DNA from: a virus
Direction: 5' to 3' (one strand)
DNA length: 36,497 nucleotides
Virus record (IMG/VR): IMGVR_UViG_3300031673_000227
Location: 1-36,497 of that record
Part shown: in pieces, positions 1,858 to 30,174 of the stretch
Position numbering within the stretch: position 1 is the stretch's first letter
Layout of the letters: every line of letters begins with the position of its first letter
The notes under the pieces: model-generated
What the model was told of the DNA's origin: nothing
Database searches by the model: none
Seen by the model: the letters and a program-made list of their open reading frames with translations, nothing else
Translations under genes and position numbers: made by a program

Positions 1858-4800
1858 GCGACCGAGAACTCATACGGCGAATTGCCGCCCGTTACCTGCT
1901 GGCCCGAGATTTCTTTGAGATCGGGGACCCTATCTTGTTCGGTAAGTACAAGAACAAGAAGGGCGTCATCGTGGGTTGGGGCACCGACCACAAGGGCAAC
2001 CCGACGGTTTTCATCGATCCCATCCCCAAGGGTCGGAAGAAGACCAAGGAGATGGGCCTGTTCAAGTTCTGGCACAACCCCCCTCCCGCCATCGCCAAGA
2101 AGCTCCAAGAGGAGGCAGCCGCCCAGATGAAGCTCGGGTGCATCATCGCCGGCAGGAAGTTTGACGATGACGTGTGCCTGTTCAAGAACCGGGACCGTGC
2201 CTACGACGCCGCGGTAGATGTCGTCCATTTGGAAAATGACGGCACCGAGATGGCGATCATCTTTGATCCAAAGACCGGCTACATCGAAGGGGTCAACGAG
2301 CACGGCATCGGAATCGTCAACACGGCGTTGATGGTCGAACGCGACGAGGCCGAGGGCAAAGGGGCGGACAAGGCGAAGGACAAAGGCAAGAAGCCGGTGA
2401 AGTCCAAGGACGGCCCCAAGATCTACAAAGCCCTGGCGTCCAAGAACTTGAGCGATGCTGTTGACATCCTCATCACCGAAGATGGCGGGATCAAAGGACA
2501 CACGTTCGTTTCGGACGGAAAGAAGATCGTCTGCATCGAGTGTAGCCGGACGCATCCGGCTCGGGTGACGACGCTGGACCCGGAAAGAACAAACACCCGG
2601 ACGAACCATGGGATCAGCTACCCCGACGCCGGATACACCGAGGGGGACGACTACGTTTCCTCCATCGTGCGTCGTTGGGAAGCACAGAAGCGTATCCAAG
2701 ACTTGAAGCACCCGGAAGACATCGGCCCGGCGCTGATGGAGACCATCCACAAGAAGGACAGCCCCTTCAATCCCGTGCGTGATACCGACACGATGCGCAC
2801 GACGAGCCAGCTTCTCATCAATACGACACGTCCCCGTATGATCCTGTACCTGATCCCAGGACACGGGAAACTCAACCGGGTTCGCAATATGCTCCCGGAC
2901 AAGCGAGAGCCCAAGATCCCTGTTCGCGTCATCAACTACGAGGGCGAGCAAGGTGAGGAGAAGATCGAAGAAAAGGATACGGCTACAGACCGTCCTCGTA
3001 CCGCCGCTCGCTACAAGTCCAAGAAACAGGTCAAGAAGCAAGACGGCGGAGAGATGACCGTCTACGAGTACAGCGACCGTCAGATCGCTGACCGGAACCG
3101 GGGCAAAGCCGAGCGTATCGAGAAGCTCCGCAAGTCCGTGGACAAGCTCCGTACTCAGGTTGCCAAGGACATGAAGTCCGGCGATGAGAAGAAGCGTGCC
3201 ATTGCTCTGGCCGTGGCCCTCATGGATCACACATTTGAGCGCGTGGGCAACGAGGGTTCAGCCAAAGAAGGCCACTTCGGAGTGACCACATGGCAGGTCA
3301 AACACATCAAATTCAAGGGCAACAAGGCCACCATCAAATACGTCGGCAAGTCCGGGGTGGATCAGAAGAAGGAAGTTACCGACACCAAGATCGTCAGCGC
3401 CCTCAAAGCTGTCTGCAAAGACAAAGGCCAGAAAGCCTGCTTGGTGGATGCGAAAGCCTCTGATGTCAACGAGTACCTCAAGCCGTTTGACATCTCGGCC
3501 AAGGACATTCGTGGTTTCCATGCCAACACGGAGATGAAGGCCCAACTCAAGAAGGTGCGATCAGGGAAACTCCCGACGGACAAGAAGGAGAAGGAGAAGC
3601 TCCTCAAGGAAGAGTTCAAGAAGGCATTGGAGGAAACGGCCAAAGCCGTGGGCCACGAGCCCAGCACGCTCAAAAGCCAGTACCTCGTCCCCGGCTTGGA
3701 GGACGGCTATCTCAAGGATGGCACCGTCAATGAGAGCCACACGAAGTCTGGCGGTCGCAAGGAGAAGGAAGACCTTGACCGTGAAGATGAGCAGGCTCAG
3801 AAGATGCTCCGTAAGGAGCCCAAGAAGAAGCCCCCACGCTACGACCTTCGTGACAACCGCACCCTCAAGGAGCGCGACAAAGACATGGAGGGCCTCGATG
3901 GCGACGACGGCGGGGACAAGGACTTGCAGGATGATGTGCGCCGCTACGCCCGTCGTGTGGCGTTCAGGTGGCTAGCCCTTCCACGAGAGCCATCGGCTGT
4001 TCGTGTGGCGATGTGGAAACAAGCGGCGGCGGATGCGGCCAAAGACAACCGAGGTAAGCACTGGAAGTCCCCGACCTCCGACTATTGGATGGGTCAGGAC
4101 ATGACGGGGGATACTCGCGGATTTGAGAGCGAAGAAGCCGCCAAGTCTTTTTCTCGTGGAGAGAAGTCTGAGAAGGAAAAGGACAAGAAGAAGAAACGGA
4201 AAAAGAAAAAAGACGAGGTTCCGAAGGGGGACACGACCGAAAAGACTGAGGAGACCTCTGGTGGCCCAGCCGAGGCCGAGGGGGACACCCCGGAGAAACC
4301 AGATACCCGGGAAGAACACAAAGCGATCCGAGACTACACCGACGAGGAGTTGGACAATGAGACCGGAGAATACTTTGAGAACGATGTGACGATGGCCGTG
4401 GCGCCCGGAGCCTTTGTCGATGCTGCCGAACTCAAAAAGAAGATCCAAGAAGCCGCGACCAAAACGCTTGGGATCGAGGAACTCAAGGCCATTGGAAACA
4501 CGGATGCCTCTGAGATTGCCGGGTTAGACCCTGAAGCTGCCCTGGCGCGAGGTAAGGAGCTTGCCGAGGAATACGAGCGGGACTGGGGGCGGATTGAACA
4601 AGGATTTACGGAAGGTGCCGAAATGCCGCCTCCTATTGTCCTTCGTGATGCGGACGGGAATATGTGGCTCATGGCTGGCAACACCCGGATGATGGGTGCG
4701 ACCGCTATGGGCAAGTCGATGCCCGTCAAGATCATTGACGTTCCCAAAGTGGATCATAGTGCCGCTCCCGGCGAAGCCAAGATAGACGAAAAAGCCTTGA

Positions 4801-7800
4801 CCGAGGCCAAGCAGGATGTCGAAGACCAACAGAAAATGGTCGATGACATGATGAAGGATCTGGAGACGGTCGAAGATGACAAACGGGAGAAGCTGGAGGA
4901 GGAGATCATCGCCGAGCGTGCCGCCCTCAAGGAGTACAAGGACAAGGTAAAAGAGATCGAGACCCCGGCGGAGGAGAAGCCCGAGGAAGACGCCAAGCCT
5001 GAAGACAAGGCGGAGGAACCAAAGGAGCAGACCCCCGAGGAGAAGCGCCAGGAGAAAGAAGACAAGCGCGGCGAGTTAGAGGCCAAGGTCAATGAGCTTC
5101 AGAAGCAAATCGACGACGGCAAGGATGCCGATGGCGACCGACTTTTGGAGGATGAGCGCCTGGAGGTAGAGAAGGAACTCACCAAAGCCCGCGACGAACT
5201 TGGAAAAGCCAATGAGGAGCTTTCCGCAGAGGATGCCACCAAGTCGGAGAACGAGCGCACTGAGCAAATCGCCAAAGAGATGCACAAGAAGGAGAAGAAG
5301 AAGAACCCTGGTACGACAAAGACCAAGGAAGACTTCGCCGCTCAAGCTCGTGCAGAAGCTCAGAAAGAAGTTGCCAAGGAACTCTCCAAGCGGAACGTCA
5401 CCGAGGCTGAGAAGACCATTGAGAGCATCATCGGCCCCGGAAGCGGTTTGTCCAAAGAGGTGCGCGAGTCCCTGACAACGGCACTGGGGAACCTCGACGA
5501 CGACCAGAAGGCGGAGTTTGCCGCGGCTCTCAAGCAAGACCTTGGCACATTGGTTGCGGACACCGAAGGCACCTCCAAGACGGCCATCAACATTGCCAAC
5601 AAGGCCGCCAACACGAGCTACGACGGCATCAAAGACCCCAAGAAGCTCGCCAAGGCCGTAGCCGAAGCTGCCTATGCCCGGAACGTCGTGGCGAATCCGA
5701 AGATCTTGGGCGGCACCCCCATTTCGGAAAACCCGAAAACTCAGGAGGAGCTTTCCGCCCGTGCTTTAGAGGCGGTCGCTCATTATCGTGAGCTAGATCC
5801 GTCTTTGCGCAACGGGGCTGCGGAGACGCTGACCGAAGAACTCAAAGACATGGACCCGAAGTCCAATCGGGCCAAAGAGATCAACCATATCCTGACCGGC
5901 ATTGCTACGGCTTCGGCGTTGAGTGTTGAAATTGGATCTGACGGCAAAATCAAAGGCGATCCCACGGTCCCCGGTCGTCCACAGCCTTCCGCCAAGGCCG
6001 TGAAGCTCCTTCAGGCGATGGACAAACGAGGGCACCTGGAGCAGATGTTCAAGCCTATTGAGGATTTGACATCGCCGGAAGGGCGCGCAGCGATTGGCGA
6101 TGCTTTGCGGGAATTGAACAACGAGGATCTCATCGATCAGATCACGGATGGGAAAAACGACCACCCGTTGAGTCCACTCACAGCGTTGCTCAATGATGAA
6201 GACCTCGATCCGGTCATCCGGGCGGCCATTCGGGAGGCTCTCATCGGGATGTCCACTGACGGGATGACCTGGGGAGACCGGGCTATTCGGGAAGTGACAG
6301 GAGAGAATGATCTCCAAAAACGTCAGGACATGATGTTGGAGATCCAAGGGGGCAAGGAGAACCGGGCTCTCGTCTCCGGGATTGCAGAAGCCGCTAAAAA
6401 CGGCGAAACGGAGAAATTCGCCCCTCCGACTGGCGGAGAGGGCGAAAACGAAGATTCTAAGGAAGAAACCACGAGTTTGTTAGACGTTTGGAGGGCTGCT
6501 CAAGCACAAAATCTCCTTGAGGAGCACTCAGACGCGGCTGAAGAAAATAAAACCAGTCCTGCGGTCGCGGTTTACCGCGAATTCGGGACTTCCAAAAACC
6601 CATCTGTCATGGATTCCGAAGTGGAACCCCACCCCGAGGAGTTTTGGGCGACTCAACGGGGCAAAAAAACTGCATCTGAATCTCAGTTATCCGCTTATAG
6701 GACACCCCATATAAGCGAAGGGCTGTCCTACGTCCCGGTTCAGAACACCGCCCCGCCCGCTAGGAGACAAAGTTCGATGACGAATCTCACCGAAAAAGGC
6801 GCCCGACAGGTAACTGCCGATCTGGACCGTCTTGCCAATCTTTTCCAAAACGACCACGACACCCTGGGTATCCCAGCCAAGGTGGCCGAGGACATGGCCC
6901 TTCGATGCGACATGCTGAGTGATCGCATTGAAACTCAGGCTGGTATGCGTCCTCGTGAAGCCACGATGGACCCTCCTGCCAACTACACCGAAGAGAAGGT
7001 GGCCCCCAATGAGTTCAATCCCGCCGAGATCGGCGAGGAGCAGAGCCAGGCCCTTCTTCGGAACGAAGATGAGCCGTACATGGACGCGTTCAAGCAGGAC
7101 GAGTTCGACGAGCTTCGTCAGGTCCAGCAGGACGGCATGTTCAGCAACGCGAAAGCCGCCGCCGCTCTTGTGAAGAAGATGGCCGCTGCGCTGGCAAAAG
7201 CGGGTCATCCGCAGTTCTCGGCTCAAAAAAAAAGTGATCTGAACGCCTCCTCCAACGAGTTGGAGGATCTGGCGGCATCACTGGAGCGCCTCGGGAACTT
7301 GGACGAAAAGATTGCCAAGTTCCACGAGGCGGCTGGCCTTGGTCACTGGACGGACTTCCAAGCGGAGGAGCACATCCGTCAACTCACAGAGCTTGAGCGC
7401 CAGCTTGCTGATGCCGAAGCCGAGATTGAGGCCCTTGCGGGTGAGGTTCTGAAGCGCAAGAAGTCGCTGGAAGCTGACCACAAGAAGCGAATCGAGCAAC
7501 TCAAGAAAGAGCTTCCGCAGACCATCGCGGGACAGAAGAAGATGGTCGTTCAAGTACGTGACGCCATCATCAAGTACGCCAAAGTCGCTGAGAAGAAGCG
7601 CCCTGGCGTCAAGCAGATGCTTGGTGATCCCAACCGAGACATCGGATCTCCGGTTGCCGAGCGCGGCGGGGAGCTTCTTCAGCGGGTCGAGGCCGAGCTT
7701 GGCGATGTCATCGCCCAGCAAGTCGCGGAGATCTACGACACCGTGATGGAAGAAATCACCGTCCTGACCCCCACCGTTCGGGGCCTTGAGTACGAACTCA

Positions 7801-12705: not shown

Positions 12706-13581
12706 ATGTCAGGAATCGACAACGCCATCAAGCAGAGGCTCATCAGCGAGTACATCAAGACCCCCATGGGTCGCGCGAAACTCGCTGCCTCTCTGACGCA
12801 ACCGTTGCGGCTTCGCCGCGACTATACCTCCGTCGGCCGCAAGACCTTCTTGGTCGAGCAATTGCCGGACGGAGCACTGCCCATCTACGACAAGGACCCG
12901 GATGTAACCGCGTTTGTCGTCGGTGAAGAAGGCCAGAACATTCTGGCTATCACCAAGCCGCGTCGCGTGATTTTCCCGCTGTTTGAGATCGCCTCAAACC
13001 CGGAGATCCCGCTGACCCAGATCAAGGAGCGTCGATTCGACCTCATTGAGCGTGCCCAAGATCTCGCCCGTGCGCAGATCCAAGCCGCTGAAGATGAGCG
13101 AGTGTTCGCCGTCCTTGACGCTATCGCAACCGCAGGGTTCGACAGCGTTCCTGGTGGCACCAACCCGGACATCCCGGTTGTTGCACCCATCTCTGGGGCG
13201 GTTCTCGCCGATGCCTTCGCGTTGATCGAGCGTCACGACCTTCGTGTTGCTCGCGTCTACATGAACGCTCGGGACTACGCGGACATCCGTAAGTTCGGTC
13301 GAGACATTCTCGACATCGAGAGCCAGGCAACACTGCTCAAGACTGGTCTGCAAGCTACCCTCTGGGGAGCCCAGGTCATCACGAGCCGGATCGTGCCCGC
13401 AGGTACGGTCTACGTGTGTTGTGAGCCAGAAATGTTCGGCAGGATTCCCGTTCGCACAGAACTCACCGTTCTGTCGGCCGATGATCCCAAGGCACGGACG
13501 ATTGGTTTCTCGGTCTTTGAAAATTTGGGCATTGGTGCGTACAACCCGAAGGGCCTCACCCGCCTCACGGTCACGCGCTAG
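12706..13581 (+). CDS. Major capsid protein (HK97 fold)
   Basis: The 291-residue protein has the layout of a compact HK97-fold coat protein: N-terminal arm (1-45), a strand-rich E-loop-like region (45-85) and a long charged spine helix at about 104-142 (Q-I-K-E-R-R-F-D-L-I-E-R then E-D-E-R-V-F). P- and A-domain strands follow, ending G-L-T-R-L-T-V-T-R. The segment V-Y-V-C-C-E-P-E-M-F-G-R-I-P-V (13408-13452) is notable because similar peptides are encoded antisense near 16167-16355. A strong AAGGAG site precedes the start, and an intrinsic terminator follows about 30 nt after the stop. Assignment rests on fold pattern, size and head-module position. No cleavable delta domain is obvious at this length. 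Confidence 0.85.
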   Translation: MSGIDNAIKQRLISEYIKTPMGRAKLAASLTQPLRLRRDYTSVGRKTFLVEQLPDGALPIYDKDPDVTAFVVGEEGQNILAITKPRRVIFPLFEIASNPEIPLTQIKERRFDLIERAQDLARAQIQAAEDERVFAVLDAIATAGFDSVPGGTNPDIPVVAPISGAVLADAFALIERHDLRVARVYMNARDYADIRKFGRDILDIESQATLLKTGLQATLWGAQVITSRIVPAGTVYVCCEPEMFGRIPVRTELTVLSADDPKARTIGFSVFENLGIGAYNPKGLTRLTVTR

Positions 13582-13610: not shown

Positions 13611-13645
13611 GCCCTCGTCCCTTTTGGGGACGGGGGCTTTCTCGT
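13611..13645 (+). terminator. Intrinsic terminator after the major capsid gene
   Basis: GCCCTCGTCCC pairs with GGGACGGGGGC (one mismatch) around a short T-rich loop, followed by TTTCTCGTTT. This likely ends the head transcript. Confidence 0.8.
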
Positions 13646-13686
13646 TTCGGGTATTCGCAGAGTTTGGGTTTGGCGTACAAGAAGGG

Positions 13687-14460
13687 ATGGTTGATCCCTC
13701 CACACAACACGTCCCATTCTCTTTTGGGTCTTACGATGTGCTGACGGGTTCCTCTCAGGAGCAAGACGTAGCCCGACAGGTCGTCCGATGGTTTTTTCGT
13801 ACTCGCGGAGAGATCGAGGAGGAGCTTCAGCACATCTACGATCTGCGCCAGCGTTTACTGAATGAGCGTGAGGACGTGCTTCTCGCCCAAAAGAAGAATA
13901 TCGGCCCCGAAGCCGGCAAACTTTTACGCCGACAGGCTCCCCAAGTCACCAGGGCGATGTTGGATCGCTATTGGACACATCGTCTCAAAATGAAAGAAGT
14001 TTTCTGGTTTCTTGAGCCCGAAGATCCGTGGACTCCCCAACGGCTTGGGTTGCTGATCAAGCAGATGTTCGACCACGAGTTCAAGGACGTGGCAGCAAAA
14101 CGGAAACGTCGGACGGAGGGAAACCGCGAGGAGTTCCTTGAAAAGCAACGACAGCGTGAGGAACAACAGCAGCGCGAGTGGGAGGCCCAGAGATTCGACC
14201 ATTACGCCGGCCACGAGGACTATCAGGACTACCTGATGTCAGAGCACTGGCTTCGTAAACGCGAAGCAGCCCGTGAGTATTACGGAGATTCCTGCTGCTT
14301 CTGCAACGACCGTAATAATCTCCAGGTACATCACCGGCATTATCGAACTCTCGGCCGCGAGGCGATGACGGATTTGTCCGTCTTGTGTGATGACTGTCAT
14401 GGGCACCATCACACCCGCAAAAAACTGACGCCAGAGCCGCGACACTCTGGGGTAAGGTGA
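13687..14460 (+). CDS. HNH endonuclease
   Basis: The frame is open from a TTG at 13624, but that lies inside the capsid terminator, so ATG 13687 is preferred (257 residues); its ribosome site is poor and a later GTG cannot be excluded. The N-terminal two thirds are helical, with a coiled coil rich in Arg, Glu and Gln near residues 140-175. The C-terminal domain is a clear HNH: Y-L-M-S-E-H-W, C204-F-C206, V-H215-H216-R-H-Y, then L-C-D-D-C-H-G-H-H-H. The cysteines form the structural zinc site and H215/H216 the beta-beta-alpha metal core. Such enzymes nick or cut DNA, as free-standing homing endonucleases or terminase-associated nucleases. The place between the capsid gene and a RecA-like gene, outside any intron I can see, favours a free-standing nuclease. 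Confidence 0.85.
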   Translation: MVDPSTQHVPFSFGSYDVLTGSSQEQDVARQVVRWFFRTRGEIEEELQHIYDLRQRLLNEREDVLLAQKKNIGPEAGKLLRRQAPQVTRAMLDRYWTHRLKMKEVFWFLEPEDPWTPQRLGLLIKQMFDHEFKDVAAKRKRRTEGNREEFLEKQRQREEQQQREWEAQRFDHYAGHEDYQDYLMSEHWLRKREAAREYYGDSCCFCNDRNNLQVHHRHYRTLGREAMTDLSVLCDDCHGHHHTRKKLTPEPRHSGVR

Positions 14461-15309: not shown

Positions 15310-15351
15310 GAGAGCCCTCAATCCTTCGGGGGTTGAGGGCTCTCTTTGTTT
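15310..15351 (+). terminator. Strong intrinsic terminator
   Basis: GAGAGCCCTCAA (15310-15321) pairs perfectly with TTGAGGGCTCTC (15333-15344), followed by TTTGTTT. It separates the RecA-like gene from the papain-like peptidase gene. The rest of the 15209-15417 gap shows only the hairpin next to the following start. Confidence 0.85.
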
Positions 15352-15386
15352 ATGGGTAGCCCCCGAAAAACGGGAGATAGCTAACC

Positions 15387-15417: not shown

Positions 15418-16167
15418 ATGGCTGATCCCATCAAGCTCCGAGACGGTTCCGAAGTTCAAGACATCCGGCTGGCCCGGTTGAAGCAGTTTGACGAGCGGTC
15501 CCGAAACCACCCCGTCATGGCCGCTGTGGGGACCAAGAAGAAGCCCCGGAGCTACACATGGAAGTGTGCCCAGTATCTCGACCAAGGCTCTGAGGGCGCT
15601 TGTGTTGGCTTCTCGATGACGCACGAACTGATTGCTCGTCCGGCGGAAGTCCAGCATCTCAGTGCCGCCTTTGCGAAGGAGCAGGTCTACTGGGAGGCCC
15701 AGAAGATCGACCCCTGGGAGGGCGGCAGTTATCCCGGGGCTTCTCCGAAATACGAAGGAACGGCGGTCCTGGCTGGGGTCAAGATCCTCAAGAAGCTGGG
15801 CTACATCGACGGCTACAAATGGGCTTTCGGGCTCAACGATCTCGTCATGGCCGTCGGCTATGCGGGGCCGGCTGTCCTGGGGATTGCCTGGTACGAGGGG
15901 ATGTTCGATACCCACTCCTGCGGGTATCTCCATGTCGAAGGTCAGGTGGCGGGAGGCCATGCCATTTTGTGCAAAGGCGTCGATGTGAAGAACAAGACGT
16001 TCACGCTGCACAACTCCTGGGGCCCGGCATGGGGGAGCGGTGGAGATGCTCTCATCCATTGGGATGAGATGGACCGATTGCTCAATGAGCAAGGGGAAGC
16101 GGTGATTCCGACGGGGCGTCACACCACCGGCATCCTGGGATCCCTCAAGAAGCTCGTTGGCCGGTAG
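15418..16167 (+). CDS. Papain-like (C1 family) cysteine peptidase
   Basis: The 249-residue protein has all three catalytic blocks of the papain fold: Q-G-S-E-G-A-C62-V-G-F-S, G-G-H181-A-I-L, and H-N199-S-W-G-P-A-W-G-S-G-G. These give the Cys-His-Asn triad plus the oxyanion glutamine before the cysteine. The domain fills most of the protein. There is no long inhibitory propeptide and no signal peptide, so it is unlike secreted papains and more like the compact forms found in viruses and bacteria. It is flanked by a terminator and start-proximal hairpin upstream and by non-coding DNA downstream, so it is probably its own transcription unit. It could be a virion-borne peptidase that modifies host proteins or the wall, or a maturation enzyme; the substrate is unknown. 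Confidence 0.85.
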   Translation: MADPIKLRDGSEVQDIRLARLKQFDERSRNHPVMAAVGTKKKPRSYTWKCAQYLDQGSEGACVGFSMTHELIARPAEVQHLSAAFAKEQVYWEAQKIDPWEGGSYPGASPKYEGTAVLAGVKILKKLGYIDGYKWAFGLNDLVMAVGYAGPAVLGIAWYEGMFDTHSCGYLHVEGQVAGGHAILCKGVDVKNKTFTLHNSWGPAWGSGGDALIHWDEMDRLLNEQGEAVIPTGRHTTGILGSLKKLVGR

Positions 16168-16355
16168 CGACCGAACATCTCGGAGTCACAGCAGACGTAA
16201 ACACCCAGGCCCGACTTCGCTGGGCTCGACGACATCCGGGGCCGCTTTTGGCGCTCAGATAGCCCCTTGGATCGATCTAAGCCCTCAATTCGTCCGTGGA
16301 ACCTCTGCCGTGGAACGCCTTGACTCAAAACTGGGATCCGACCGAACATCTCCGG
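16167..16355 (-). pseudogene. Antisense fragments resembling the major capsid protein (two short copies)
   Basis: Read on the minus strand, 16202-16167 encodes V-Y-V-C-C-D-S-E-M-F-G-R and 16355-16329 encodes P-E-M-F-G-R-I-P-V, in the same frame. The capsid protein has V-Y-V-C-C-E-P-E-M-F-G-R-I-P-V at 13408-13452. Most nucleotide differences between the first copy and the capsid gene are in third codon positions, which suggests descent from a diverged coding copy rather than a recent duplication. At DNA level the two copies share CGACCGAACATCTC (16168-16181 and 16339-16352). The sequence between shows no further clear match. The surrounding 16168-16508 gap has no convincing gene on either strand. 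It could be a relic of a lost capsid paralogue or a functional DNA/RNA site. Confidence 0.55.
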
Positions 16356-16485
16356 CCGACGACCCGAACCGTTCAACGACTGGGTTTTGGGATTGACAGA
16401 GGCCGGGGCCAACCGTAGATTCCCGATACCGGATGGCATCCCCATCACAACTGAATACTCTTGAGGTCCGTGGACCGCCCTAGCT

Positions 16486-16508: not shown

Positions 16509-16796
16509 ATGAGCAAAAACACCGACCACAAGAACCATTCTGACAACACCAACCCTCCCAGGAAGCCCCGTCCGGGCTTCAAACGCATTGTTGTGGGCTG
16601 GAGGCCCATCCCGATGCAGGCGAAGCATTTGGAGACTCCAGCGGGGAGTCACAGATGCCCGAAGTGCTGGCTGAAGAACGCCCAAAAGGGGCACTTTTGC
16701 CGTTGGGACATCGAGAACGAGGGCCCAGGGCGCGATCCCAACCCTCCGATGCGGTGGGCGCCTATCTACCAGTGGGTGCCGGCCGGTTCCGGGTAG
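16509..16796 (+). CDS. Small cysteine-containing protein of unknown function
   Basis: The 95-residue product is hydrophilic and Pro/Arg/Lys-rich, with C-P-K-C-W near the middle and one further cysteine and histidine (G-H-F-C) that could complete a zinc site. No family recognised. GGAAG six bases before ATG 16509 supports the start, though the site lies in a hairpin. It sits between the non-coding relic region and a virion-associated gene. Small size and low complexity leave some doubt that it is expressed. Confidence 0.5.
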   Translation: MSKNTDHKNHSDNTNPPRKPRPGFKRIVVGWRPIPMQAKHLETPAGSHRCPKCWLKNAQKGHFCRWDIENEGPGRDPNPPMRWAPIYQWVPAGSG

Positions 16797-16797
16797 T

Positions 16798-16811
16798 CCG
16801 GCTATAGGCTC
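16798..16811 (+). promoter_or_regulatory. CTATAG motif upstream of 16832
   Basis: GGCTATAGGC sits in the short gap before the next gene and reads GCCTATAGCC on the other strand. It is one of several CCTATAG-like sites in gaps of this window and may be a promoter element. Confidence 0.35.
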
Positions 16812-16831
16812 GCCTTTGGCAGAGGGTGCCT

Positions 16832-27752: not shown

Positions 27753-28427
27753 ATGCCGTACATCATCATGCGTCGAACCGACATCCCCAACGGGGTGCTC
27801 CAGGTCATCGATCTCAAGCCCAATACCTCCCAGCGGAGTCTCATCTACGATCCCGGTGACGGGCAGTCGGGCTACGTTCGCAACATCCCGGACAACCAAT
27901 CCGTTGCAACGGTTGCCCCTGTTGCCGCCATCCTCACGGTTCGTGACTACTGCGGTTTGGCCGCATACCTCATCGACAACGTGGAGGATGCTGGTGGTGC
28001 CGCGCTCACGGCTGCGGTTGCCAACGCATCGGCAGCTTCCATGATCACGAAGGCTCAGTCCGGTGCCGCTCTCACGCTGGCCGACATGGACTTGAGCCTC
28101 ACGGCCAACGGTGTCGCTGACGCTACCGGTGGTACGGGAGTCGAGGCTGGTGCGTCCACTGGTCTGTTCACCGAGGTGATGAGCCTGCTCCAAGGAAGCA
28201 AGTACCTTCTTCCGGGTGGTTCGACGGTCGATACCGACGGCGCCACGTTCAACCCCACTCGCCAAGGTTCGTTCTCGTTCCTTTCGCGGACCTACTACGC
28301 CACAGGTGCTTTCAACATCTCCAATGGAGAAGGCAACCTGGCCGATTACAAGGCGACGACCTTTGAGTACGAAGGAACGCTGGCCCCAGCAATTGTCGTG
28401 TACGACGACACCGGCGCAGTGGCCTAA
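27753..28427 (+). CDS. Structural protein, paralogue 1 of 3
   Basis: The 224-residue protein begins M-P-Y-I-I-M-R-R-T-D-I-P, then L-Q-V-I-D-L-K-P-N-T-S-Q-R, and ends in Y-A-T-G-A-F-N-I-S-N-G-E-G-N and V-V-Y-D-D-T-G. The same start and end blocks recur in the next two genes. The middle is Ala/Gly/Thr-rich. No catalytic motif. Tandem paralogy in a late-gene region points to a virion protein assembled as an oligomer or used alternately; the exact part is unknown. Confidence 0.6.
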   Translation: MPYIIMRRTDIPNGVLQVIDLKPNTSQRSLIYDPGDGQSGYVRNIPDNQSVATVAPVAAILTVRDYCGLAAYLIDNVEDAGGAALTAAVANASAASMITKAQSGAALTLADMDLSLTANGVADATGGTGVEAGASTGLFTEVMSLLQGSKYLLPGGSTVDTDGATFNPTRQGSFSFLSRTYYATGAFNISNGEGNLADYKATTFEYEGTLAPAIVVYDDTGAVA

Positions 28428-28445: not shown

Positions 28446-29489
28446 ATGCCGTACATCATCCTCAAAAGAAGTGACATCCCGGCTGCGACGCTTCAGGTCT
28501 TGGACCTGACGCCCAACACGTCACAGCGGAATCTCATCTACGATCCCCCCGGACAGACGAAATACGTCGATCCGGTGCAGAACGACACGGTTGTCACTGC
28601 TGTCAACGGCGCTGGCGACACGGTGATGCACCGCGCGGCCAACGGTTTGGCCGCTTGGATCATCACCAACCTCAATGACGGAACCGGAGCCCCTGGCGTC
28701 GGTACGTTCACCTTGGTGTTCGCCACGCCGATCATCGCGGGTGACACCGTGACGGTTGGTCCGCAGTTGTTCACGGCTGTTGCTGGTGCCCGTACCTCGG
28801 GTGCCAACGACTTCAGCATCGCATCGGGCACTGACCCGGGCATTGCAACTGACTTGGCAGCGGCCATCAATGACCCGGCCAACGGCGGTGGCACTCTGTC
28901 CACTCTCGTGACGGCGGTTCCGGCGGCTGCGGTTGTGACCGTCACGGCCGACATGGATGGCACGGCAGGCAACCTTGTCCTGGCTTCCTCCAACGGTGCT
29001 GGGTTCAGCCCCGTCGGCATGGCCGGCGGTGCAGACGCGGCGGCCATCACAGCAGCGGACGCCAACACGGGCGCTGCGGCTATCCTGGCGCTTTACGCCT
29101 ACGGGGATCTCACCAGCGCAGCCGGTGTCCTGACATTGGGTGCCATCAACGGTGTTCTTGTCGGTGGTGCGGCCATCACGGCTGCTCAACTCACCAGCGT
29201 GTTGGACATCCTGGCTGGTCGTCAGTTCCAAACGCCGCGGGGCGTCCAGATTGAGACCGCGGCCATTGTTTGGGATGTCTCTCCCGCAGTGGGAGCCGCT
29301 GGGGGTCCGGGTTTCGTGGCGGGGTCGCTGCGGAACATCTACAACAGCGGGTCGCTGACTCTCTCGTTCGCCACTGGTGAGCTTGAGGGTTTCTCGGACA
29401 CCGGGTTCATCTACGCGGGTGTCGCAGGCACTCCCAACGGAGAAGCTGTCGTGGTCTACAACGACGACGGCACCCTCTACACGCCGTAA
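28446..29489 (+). CDS. Structural protein, paralogue 2 of 3, with inserted beta domain
   Basis: The 347-residue protein shares the N-terminal I-I-L-K-R-S-D-I-P and D-L-T-P-N-T-S-Q-R block and the C-terminal V-V-Y-N-D-D-G block with its neighbours. It carries about 125 extra residues (roughly 92-215). The insert reads G-D-T-V-T-V-G, F-T-A-V, A-A-A-I-N-D-P and G-T-A-G-N-L-V-L, like the beta-sandwich repeat units seen in phage fibre and adhesion proteins. That suggests a decorated version of the same particle component. The start follows 18 nt after the previous stop. Function inferred only from location and repeat type. Confidence 0.6.
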   Translation: MPYIILKRSDIPAATLQVLDLTPNTSQRNLIYDPPGQTKYVDPVQNDTVVTAVNGAGDTVMHRAANGLAAWIITNLNDGTGAPGVGTFTLVFATPIIAGDTVTVGPQLFTAVAGARTSGANDFSIASGTDPGIATDLAAAINDPANGGGTLSTLVTAVPAAAVVTVTADMDGTAGNLVLASSNGAGFSPVGMAGGADAAAITAADANTGAAAILALYAYGDLTSAAGVLTLGAINGVLVGGAAITAAQLTSVLDILAGRQFQTPRGVQIETAAIVWDVSPAVGAAGGPGFVAGSLRNIYNSGSLTLSFATGELEGFSDTGFIYAGVAGTPNGEAVVVYNDDGTLYTP

Positions 29490-29505: not shown

Positions 29506-30174
29506 ATGCCTCAAGTCTTCTTGGTAATGCGCCGGACTGACATCCCCGAAGAGGAGATGCAGGTCGTGGACCTCAAGCCCAACACGTCTCAGAGGAACTA
29601 TGTCCTCACGGCTCCGGGACAGTCGGGATACGTCAACAACATCCCCGACGCAGCCGCGACTGGCTTCGTTGGGGCTGGTCCCACGTTCACCACTTCGTCC
29701 GATCTGACGGGCGTTTCCGCCTATCTGCTGGGCAACATCAACACCACCGCTGGTGCGGGTGCTCCGTTCACGGGCGTAGAAGCCGATGCGGCAACGGCAG
29801 CGTTGGTCGCCATCGCTCAAGCTGGAACCGTGATGGATCTAGCGGCTGTCAACGCCGCTCTCGCTGGTGTTGTGGGTGGCACAACACTAACGGCGGGAGG
29901 TTCCACTGGTGTCTTGACGGAGCTTCTGAGTGCCATGGCGGGGAACGCATGGGCGATCCCGTCTGGTACAGACCTGGCTGTGGGTGGTGTCAAGACCGCA
30001 GCCGCGAATGGAGCTTTCGTTGCTGGGACGTACCGGGCTCTATACGACACCGGAGCGTTCGTCATCTCCAATGCCGAAGGGAACATCTCGCGCTACAAGC
30101 GGGCGACGTTCACCTACCTGGACACGCAGGGGGCAGCCCTGACCGTCTACTCGGCGACGGGCACGGTCCTGTAG
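29506..30174 (+). CDS. Structural protein, paralogue 3 of 3
   Basis: The ATG is at 29506, preceded by AAAGGAC. The 222-residue protein begins M-P-Q-V-F-L-V-M-R-R-T-D-I-P and D-L-K-P-N-T-S-Q-R and ends G-A-F-V-I-S-N-A-E-G-N and V-Y-S-A-T-G. It is closest to paralogue 1 in length and order and lacks the insert of paralogue 2. It is followed by a double hairpin terminator. Likely virion component. Confidence 0.6.
   Translation: MPQVFLVMRRTDIPEEEMQVVDLKPNTSQRNYVLTAPGQSGYVNNIPDAAATGFVGAGPTFTTSSDLTGVSAYLLGNINTTAGAGAPFTGVEADAATAALVAIAQAGTVMDLAAVNAALAGVVGGTTLTAGGSTGVLTELLSAMAGNAWAIPSGTDLAVGGVKTAAANGAFVAGTYRALYDTGAFVISNAEGNISRYKRATFTYLDTQGAALTVYSATGTVL

Follow-up and report, generated by a model that had tools for sequence, protein, structure and literature searches.

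The regulatory site of the T4 homing endonuclease I-TevI imitates the homing site of this enzyme without a properly placed cleavage sequence; the operator agrees with the homing site at 15 of 20 nucleotides, and although the enzyme binds both equally, it cleaves the operator about 100-fold less (PMC2988022). Free-standing intronless homing endonucleases also adjoin essential phage genes, examples being the seg and mob genes of T4 and the 'HEG islands' known from ICP1 as well as other phages (PMC10448857). The window analyzed here is an entire linear IMG/VR virus record of 36,497 bp, which carries two short antisense fragments of the major capsid protein (MCP) gene, termed element 1 and element 2, behind a papain-like protease gene (Table 1). 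Like the I-TevI operator, element 1 is a short intergenic likeness of a conserved target gene segment, is altered where cutting might occur, and belongs to a phage that has endonuclease genes beside the target gene. Unlike the operator, it is not located upstream of an endonuclease gene, is longer (35-39 nt), and occurs in several copies. Phages also carry CRISPR spacers against competing phages, and element 1 resembles these in being a spacer-sized antisense match to the structural gene of a competitor. In contrast to such spacers, it has no flanking CRISPR repeats, the sole repeat being 14 nt inside the capsid match, and all element 1 copies bear central mismatches; a CRISPR array or spacer was therefore rejected. 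As with seg/mob and the HEG islands, the MCP gene has endonuclease genes as neighbours, a LAGLIDADG or HNH gene coming immediately after it in about half of the window's relatives; unlike here, antisense capsid fragments in a gap are not known to be described for those systems.

The two antisense elements and the capsid paralogue interpretation

The MCP family is strongly conserved, with relatives encoded on 500 IMG/VR stretches, the best 80 of them at 89-98% identity; several of these relatives sit on contigs of hundreds of kb, and Bacillus phage G is a named distant relative. The same region is found on two other contigs, L003 and L004, with a capsid protein that is 98% identical, and the clade comprising the window, L003 and L004 is probably a small group of huge phages. 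In the window, a second ORF lies between the HNH gene and the protease gene, and the gap between the protease gene and the following 95-aa ORF is 341 bp in length. The first-pass annotation of this DNA had placed two capsid-like peptides in the gap, in one minus-strand frame and 171 nt apart, with an exact 14-nt direct repeat (CGACCGAACATCTC) marking both and a counterpart in the MCP gene, and we recovered each of these features at the proposed place. The two copies of CGACCGAACATCTC are absent elsewhere in the 36,497-bp contig. Searching the gap alone with the capsid protein of the window (tblastn) gave E-values of 5e-5 and 4e-4. Element 1 spans 12 codons and element 2 nine; they overlap by 14 nt, both contain EMFGR, and their order is circularly permuted relative to the capsid.

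Table 1 Coordinates of the capsid locus, the two antisense elements and their surroundings in the window
Feature	Position	Strand	Remarks
MCP gene	12706..13581	+	PHROG 2522, major head protein
Own MCP segment VYVCCEPEMFGRIPV	13408..13452	+	Counterpart of both elements; MCP codons 235-249
HNH endonuclease gene	13624..14460	+	PHROG 119/144 (weak E-values); an insertion immediately 3' of the MCP gene
Papain-like protease gene	15418..16167	+	Element 1 right behind its stop codon
Element 1, antisense MCP fragment reading GVYVCCDSEMFGR	16168..16206	-	Conserved in L004, decayed in L003
Direct repeat CGACCGAACATCTC, copy 1	16168..16181	+	14 nt, exact
D-S codons GACTCC, middle of element 1	16182..16187	-	GAGCC to GACTC change; element 2 stops short of this position
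Insertion specific to the window versus L003/L004	16330..16788	+	Approximate limits, about 460 bp; element 2 at left edge, ORF 16509-16796 inside
Element 2, second antisense MCP fragment reading PEMFGRIPV	16330..16356	-	Start coincides with the loss of homology to L003/L004
Direct repeat CGACCGAACATCTC, copy 2	16339..16352	+	14 nt, exact
95-aa ORF	16509..16796	+	No assigned function; C-x2-C pair

The peptides had been interpreted as remnants of a diverged capsid paralogue. This interpretation is favored by the protein-level match, by the single minus-strand frame that is open through the gap, and by the differences between element 1 and the capsid gene of the window (9 of 35 nt), which are mostly silent, as had been noted, except for the change from E-P to D-S. 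However, the capsid search of the gap revealed no similarity beyond the two short peptides: the rest of the gap reached at best 28.3 bits against the capsid while shuffled sequence reached up to 32.6 bits, and no further capsid pieces were found in it. The nearest match of element 1 is a gene of another lineage, and the frame is broken by a 1-nt deletion in L003. Moreover, since overlapping pieces in circularly permuted order would not result from decay, a decayed gene is unlikely. As the similarity is confined to pieces of 12 and nine codons and does not extend colinearly across any sizeable portion of the capsid gene, we rejected a capsid paralogue or pseudogene, and regard such remnants as highly improbable.

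Source of the elements and their copies in related phages

Element 1 has only three mismatches in 35 nt to MCP genes of the L015 type (32/35), but nine to the MCP gene of the window itself, nine to that of L003 and eight to that of L004. A blastn search against the capsid loci of the relatives gave matches of 33/36 with E-values down to 6e-8. The best capsid match of element 2 is 22/23 nt in L044, where 14 of its nucleotides are those shared with element 1. Based on these mismatch counts, element 1 evidently derives from the MCP gene of a related but different phage lineage. Thus, the earlier view that the copies do not stem from a recent duplication of the resident capsid gene holds, the element being nearer to the capsid genes of other lineages than to its own. 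Chance is likewise excluded, as had been argued, because of this 32/35 match to a relative's MCP gene together with a copy at 33/35 on the separate contig L004.

In each of the three phages, an element of the first type comes just after the stop codon of the protease gene; the comparison across relatives that had been proposed recovered it in L003 and L004, with the reading frame broken in L003. The L004 contig holds two copies, on either side of an extra ORF (2834-3601). The copy at 2764-2800 directly adjoins the protease stop codon and is degenerate; the one at 3604-3638 is near-perfect (33/35) and has flanks that cannot be aligned with the window. We sought relatives of this extra ORF, considering that it might be a widespread mobile cassette, and found none. 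In L003, a single copy is located behind the protease gene; it has lost 1 nt and carries further changes. Element 1 is therefore well preserved in two of the three phages. The pentamer GACTC is common to all four copies (element 1 of the window, both L004 copies, and the L003 copy), whereas the capsid genes examined all read GARCC, and the further sampled capsid genes of relatives all encode E-P at the D-S position. Since all copies share this central change, descent is favored over repeated recent import. Judging from the common position and the common substitutions, the capture evidently dates back to an ancestor common to all three phages.

A peptide search through the whole contigs of 50 relatives returned a clear second copy in L004 alone, plus one weak 14-residue match in the L087 contig (E-value 0.04); this search overlooked the frameshifted copy of L003 and would likewise overlook other decayed ones. 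When IMG/VR was searched with degenerate patterns for the D-S form, L004 was the only match, and the two matches to the element in GTDB genomes are both in unrelated coding sequence, at approximately the chance rate. No further intergenic antisense fragments were seen in the window, L003 or L004. Several other features of the region were observed in the course of this comparison. Within the L004 protease gene (1877-2770), a segment of about 48 residues (WYEGTSVLAGVKMLKTLGYIDGYKWAFGLNDLVMAVGYAGPAVLGVP) is repeated in tandem and in frame, a duplication that is either real or an assembly artefact. The palindrome GATCGATC is conserved in the gap of all three phages (L004 3707-3734, window ~16262-16285, and L003 ~5158-5185); in L004 it forms the centre of a perfect 26-nt palindrome, and the fold of the region has a z-score of -4.1. 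An intergenic motif GGGTAGT..C..CTATAGG...GGCAG.GGG is conserved upstream of the next gene in the three phages (window ~16793-16830, L003 ~5288, and L004 ~3821), and is possibly a promoter.

Conservation of element 1 and its possible roles

The window and L004 copies of element 1 are identical at 33 of 35 positions (94%), whereas only 88 of 172 fourfold sites (51%) are identical in the aligned genes, and thus the element looks constrained (binomial test, p ~4e-8). The corresponding value is ~2e-5 for the window and L003, which is approximate because it is based on a hand-counted identity of 30/36 where the script alignment gives 29/37, and 0.008 for L003 and L004 (hand-counted identity 33/38). 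Both differences between the window and L004 copies are at silent capsid positions and involve bases that are common among capsid genes. These comparisons point to selection acting on the sequence of the element, at least between the window and L004. Recent exchange among lineages might give the same picture, although it would need to span just 35 nt. Taken together, the alignments show a real, capsid-derived short element in a small clade, and this element probably has a function; in view of its good preservation in two of the three phages, a working site or an RNA is more probable than a dead gene. The conservation is more readily reconciled with the alternative that had been offered, namely that the copies are kept as a recombination or RNA site, than with the paralogue; no link to packaging emerged.

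Nevertheless, the element might be an inert relic, a fragment captured once in recombination and of no present function, the likeness between the window and L004 then being due to recent exchange or luck. The L003 copy is decayed (a 1-nt deletion and 5 changes in 38), the first L004 copy is degenerate, and no relative outside the clade was seen to keep the element in our searches of the relatives' contigs. Against this are the excess of the window-L004 identity over the ~51% expected at neutral sites, in spite of the unalignable flanks, and the one central change in all copies. We consider a relic possible, and nearly as likely as the functional site mimic that is preferred below.

The main functional rival is an antisense RNA against the capsid mRNA of competitors, in which the plus-strand 3' UTR of the protease operon would pair with MCP mRNA from relatives infecting the same cell and block its expression, the phage's own MCP mRNA being spared by its different codons. 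Consistent with this, all copies, read on the coding strand of the adjacent genes, are antisense to a capsid mRNA, the duplex is predicted at about -64 kcal/mol with L015-type mRNAs versus -38 with the own mRNA, the window and L004 copies differ only by the silent, common capsid alleles mentioned above, and a perfect GC-rich hairpin follows the L004 element. However, the pairing of element 1 with the own capsid is barely above background, neither element 2 nor the L003 copy has the capsid of its own phage as best partner, and all copies keep the central mismatch to every known capsid. In addition, the fold of the window element is unremarkable (z = 0.5), and the recoding of the own capsid gene at the site is not significant (217 of 254 windows rank lower). 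Such an RNA thus appears rather unlikely. A variant in which the RNA targets the phage's own capsid mRNA is unsupported, since the own-capsid pairing is near background and is lost for element 2 and L003. An Rfam scan of the whole window matched no family.

A short minus-strand peptide that mimics a capsid strand and interferes with assembly would explain why the 12-residue peptide is identical in the window and L004, with only silent differences. Yet the copies share no common start, end or flanking residues, the L003 copy is frameshifted, and the neighbouring genes are all on the opposite strand, so we regard this as highly improbable.

Homing endonucleases behind the MCP gene and the proposed capture of capsid fragments

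The 3' end of the MCP gene is occupied by endonuclease genes in many of these phages. A sample of 59 ORFs was taken from immediately 3' of the MCP gene, covering the window and relatives. LAGLIDADG_2 is matched by 21 of them, single HNH endonuclease profiles by up to 10, some of which are perhaps the same ORFs, and DNA methyltransferases by several. At the level of loci, 32 capsid loci have a LAGLIDADG gene and 35 do not, the latter being counted only when at least 1.5 kb of downstream sequence is available. Free-standing LAGLIDADG_2 genes directly 3' of the MCP gene occur in about half of the relatives (regions in L003-L082). A LAGLIDADG gene follows the MCP gene in L003 and an HNH gene does so in the window; L004, a contig of just 5.7 kb, has no endonuclease gene there. 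Since LAGLIDADG or HNH genes occupy this place in about half of the relatives, we consider the 3' end of the MCP gene a homing hotspot. An identical 36-nt capsid site is found in L058, which has a LAGLIDADG gene, and in L015, which has none; therefore, the site cannot protect its carrier in the LAGLIDADG family. No synonymous constraint at the capsid site was detected across the capsid genes, its low nucleotide divergence stemming from residues of low degeneracy. The MCP genes of L015 and L058, which otherwise differ at 100 positions (about 10% divergent), share an identical 122-nt tract spanning the capsid site, which suggests local gene conversion. There is no clear gene-conversion hotspot at the capsid site, as identical tracts cluster elsewhere too.

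The explanation we prefer, by analogy with the T4 system and with a probability of roughly one in three, is that a capsid-gene fragment was captured in a homing-type recombination and has been kept as a homing-site mimic. A 35-39-nt piece of the MCP gene of another lineage would have been captured, in reversed orientation, behind the protease gene in the common ancestor. This may have occurred during co-infection, in the course of double-strand break repair near the end of an MCP gene (3' side), as the free-standing homing endonucleases located there would suggest. The element would then persist as a short DNA site resembling the capsid homing target, with the centre altered. The relatives' capsid segment that element 1 matches at 32 of 35 nt is the candidate target, and the replacement of GAGCC by GACTC in the middle of all four element-1-type copies is the candidate alteration of the cleavage site. 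Through this alteration the element might be bound, or used for recombination, yet remain uncut, like the I-TevI operator. Counting against this explanation are the identical sites in L058 and L015, the lack of synonymous constraint and of a clear conversion hotspot at the capsid site, the lack of an endonuclease gene after the MCP gene in the short L004 contig, the decay of the L003 copy, and the placement of the element. In the window, element 1 does not overlap the promoter of the HNH gene but follows this gene at a distance of about 1.7 kb. Hence we do not class it as an I-TevI-type operator, although it perhaps works alike.

Homology of the window to L003 and L004 runs to ~16328 and resumes at ~16790, at the GGGTAGT...CTATAGG motif. 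The extra copies flank newly inserted ORFs, namely, element 2 in the window and the pair of copies in L004, and in the homing-site mimic scenario these would be further break-repair events at the same place. The main reason for considering break repair is that the insertion edges carry such copies or duplications. The segment comprising the HNH gene and the following ORF is missing from L004, and a short stretch 3' of the L004 MCP gene (~1245-1304) matches window 13627-13648 and 15316-15378, on either side of this segment, as if duplicated on insertion.

The repeats could alternatively reflect site-specific integration, the 171-bp inter-repeat unit being a tiny element whose circular form joins VYVCCDSEMFGR to IPV with CGACCGAACATCTC as the crossover core. 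The repeat is exact, and the 171-bp unit joined head to tail restores VYVCCDSEMFGRIPV. However, element 2 is missing from L003 and L004 although both have element 1, so that they do not represent empty sites, a unit of 171 bp falls below the size of known integrative elements, and no integrase or tRNA was found nearby when the neighbouring genes were scanned, a tRNA scan also finding nothing. Integration is therefore very improbable.

It is also conceivable, though quite unlikely, that the captured capsid segment is an anti-competitor element that tracks the alleles of other lineages, though not those of its own, and either lowers the capsid production of co-infecting relatives or directs breakage at their most invariant gene. 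If the resemblance to the capsid genes of other phages is functional, it would represent compact sequence-based competition between huge phages or, alternatively, a further case of homing-site mimicry outside T4. If the elements are relics only, they record repeated capture of capsid fragments beside newly inserted genes in phages whose MCP gene is a homing-endonuclease hotspot.

Apart from this locus, related 102-nt segments open consecutive genes of the window (27753-27854, 28446-28547, and 29512-29613), and their homologues in L003 share starts of the type RRTDIP/RSDIP...LKPNTSQR. The similarity of these starts suggests a duplicated structural protein family.
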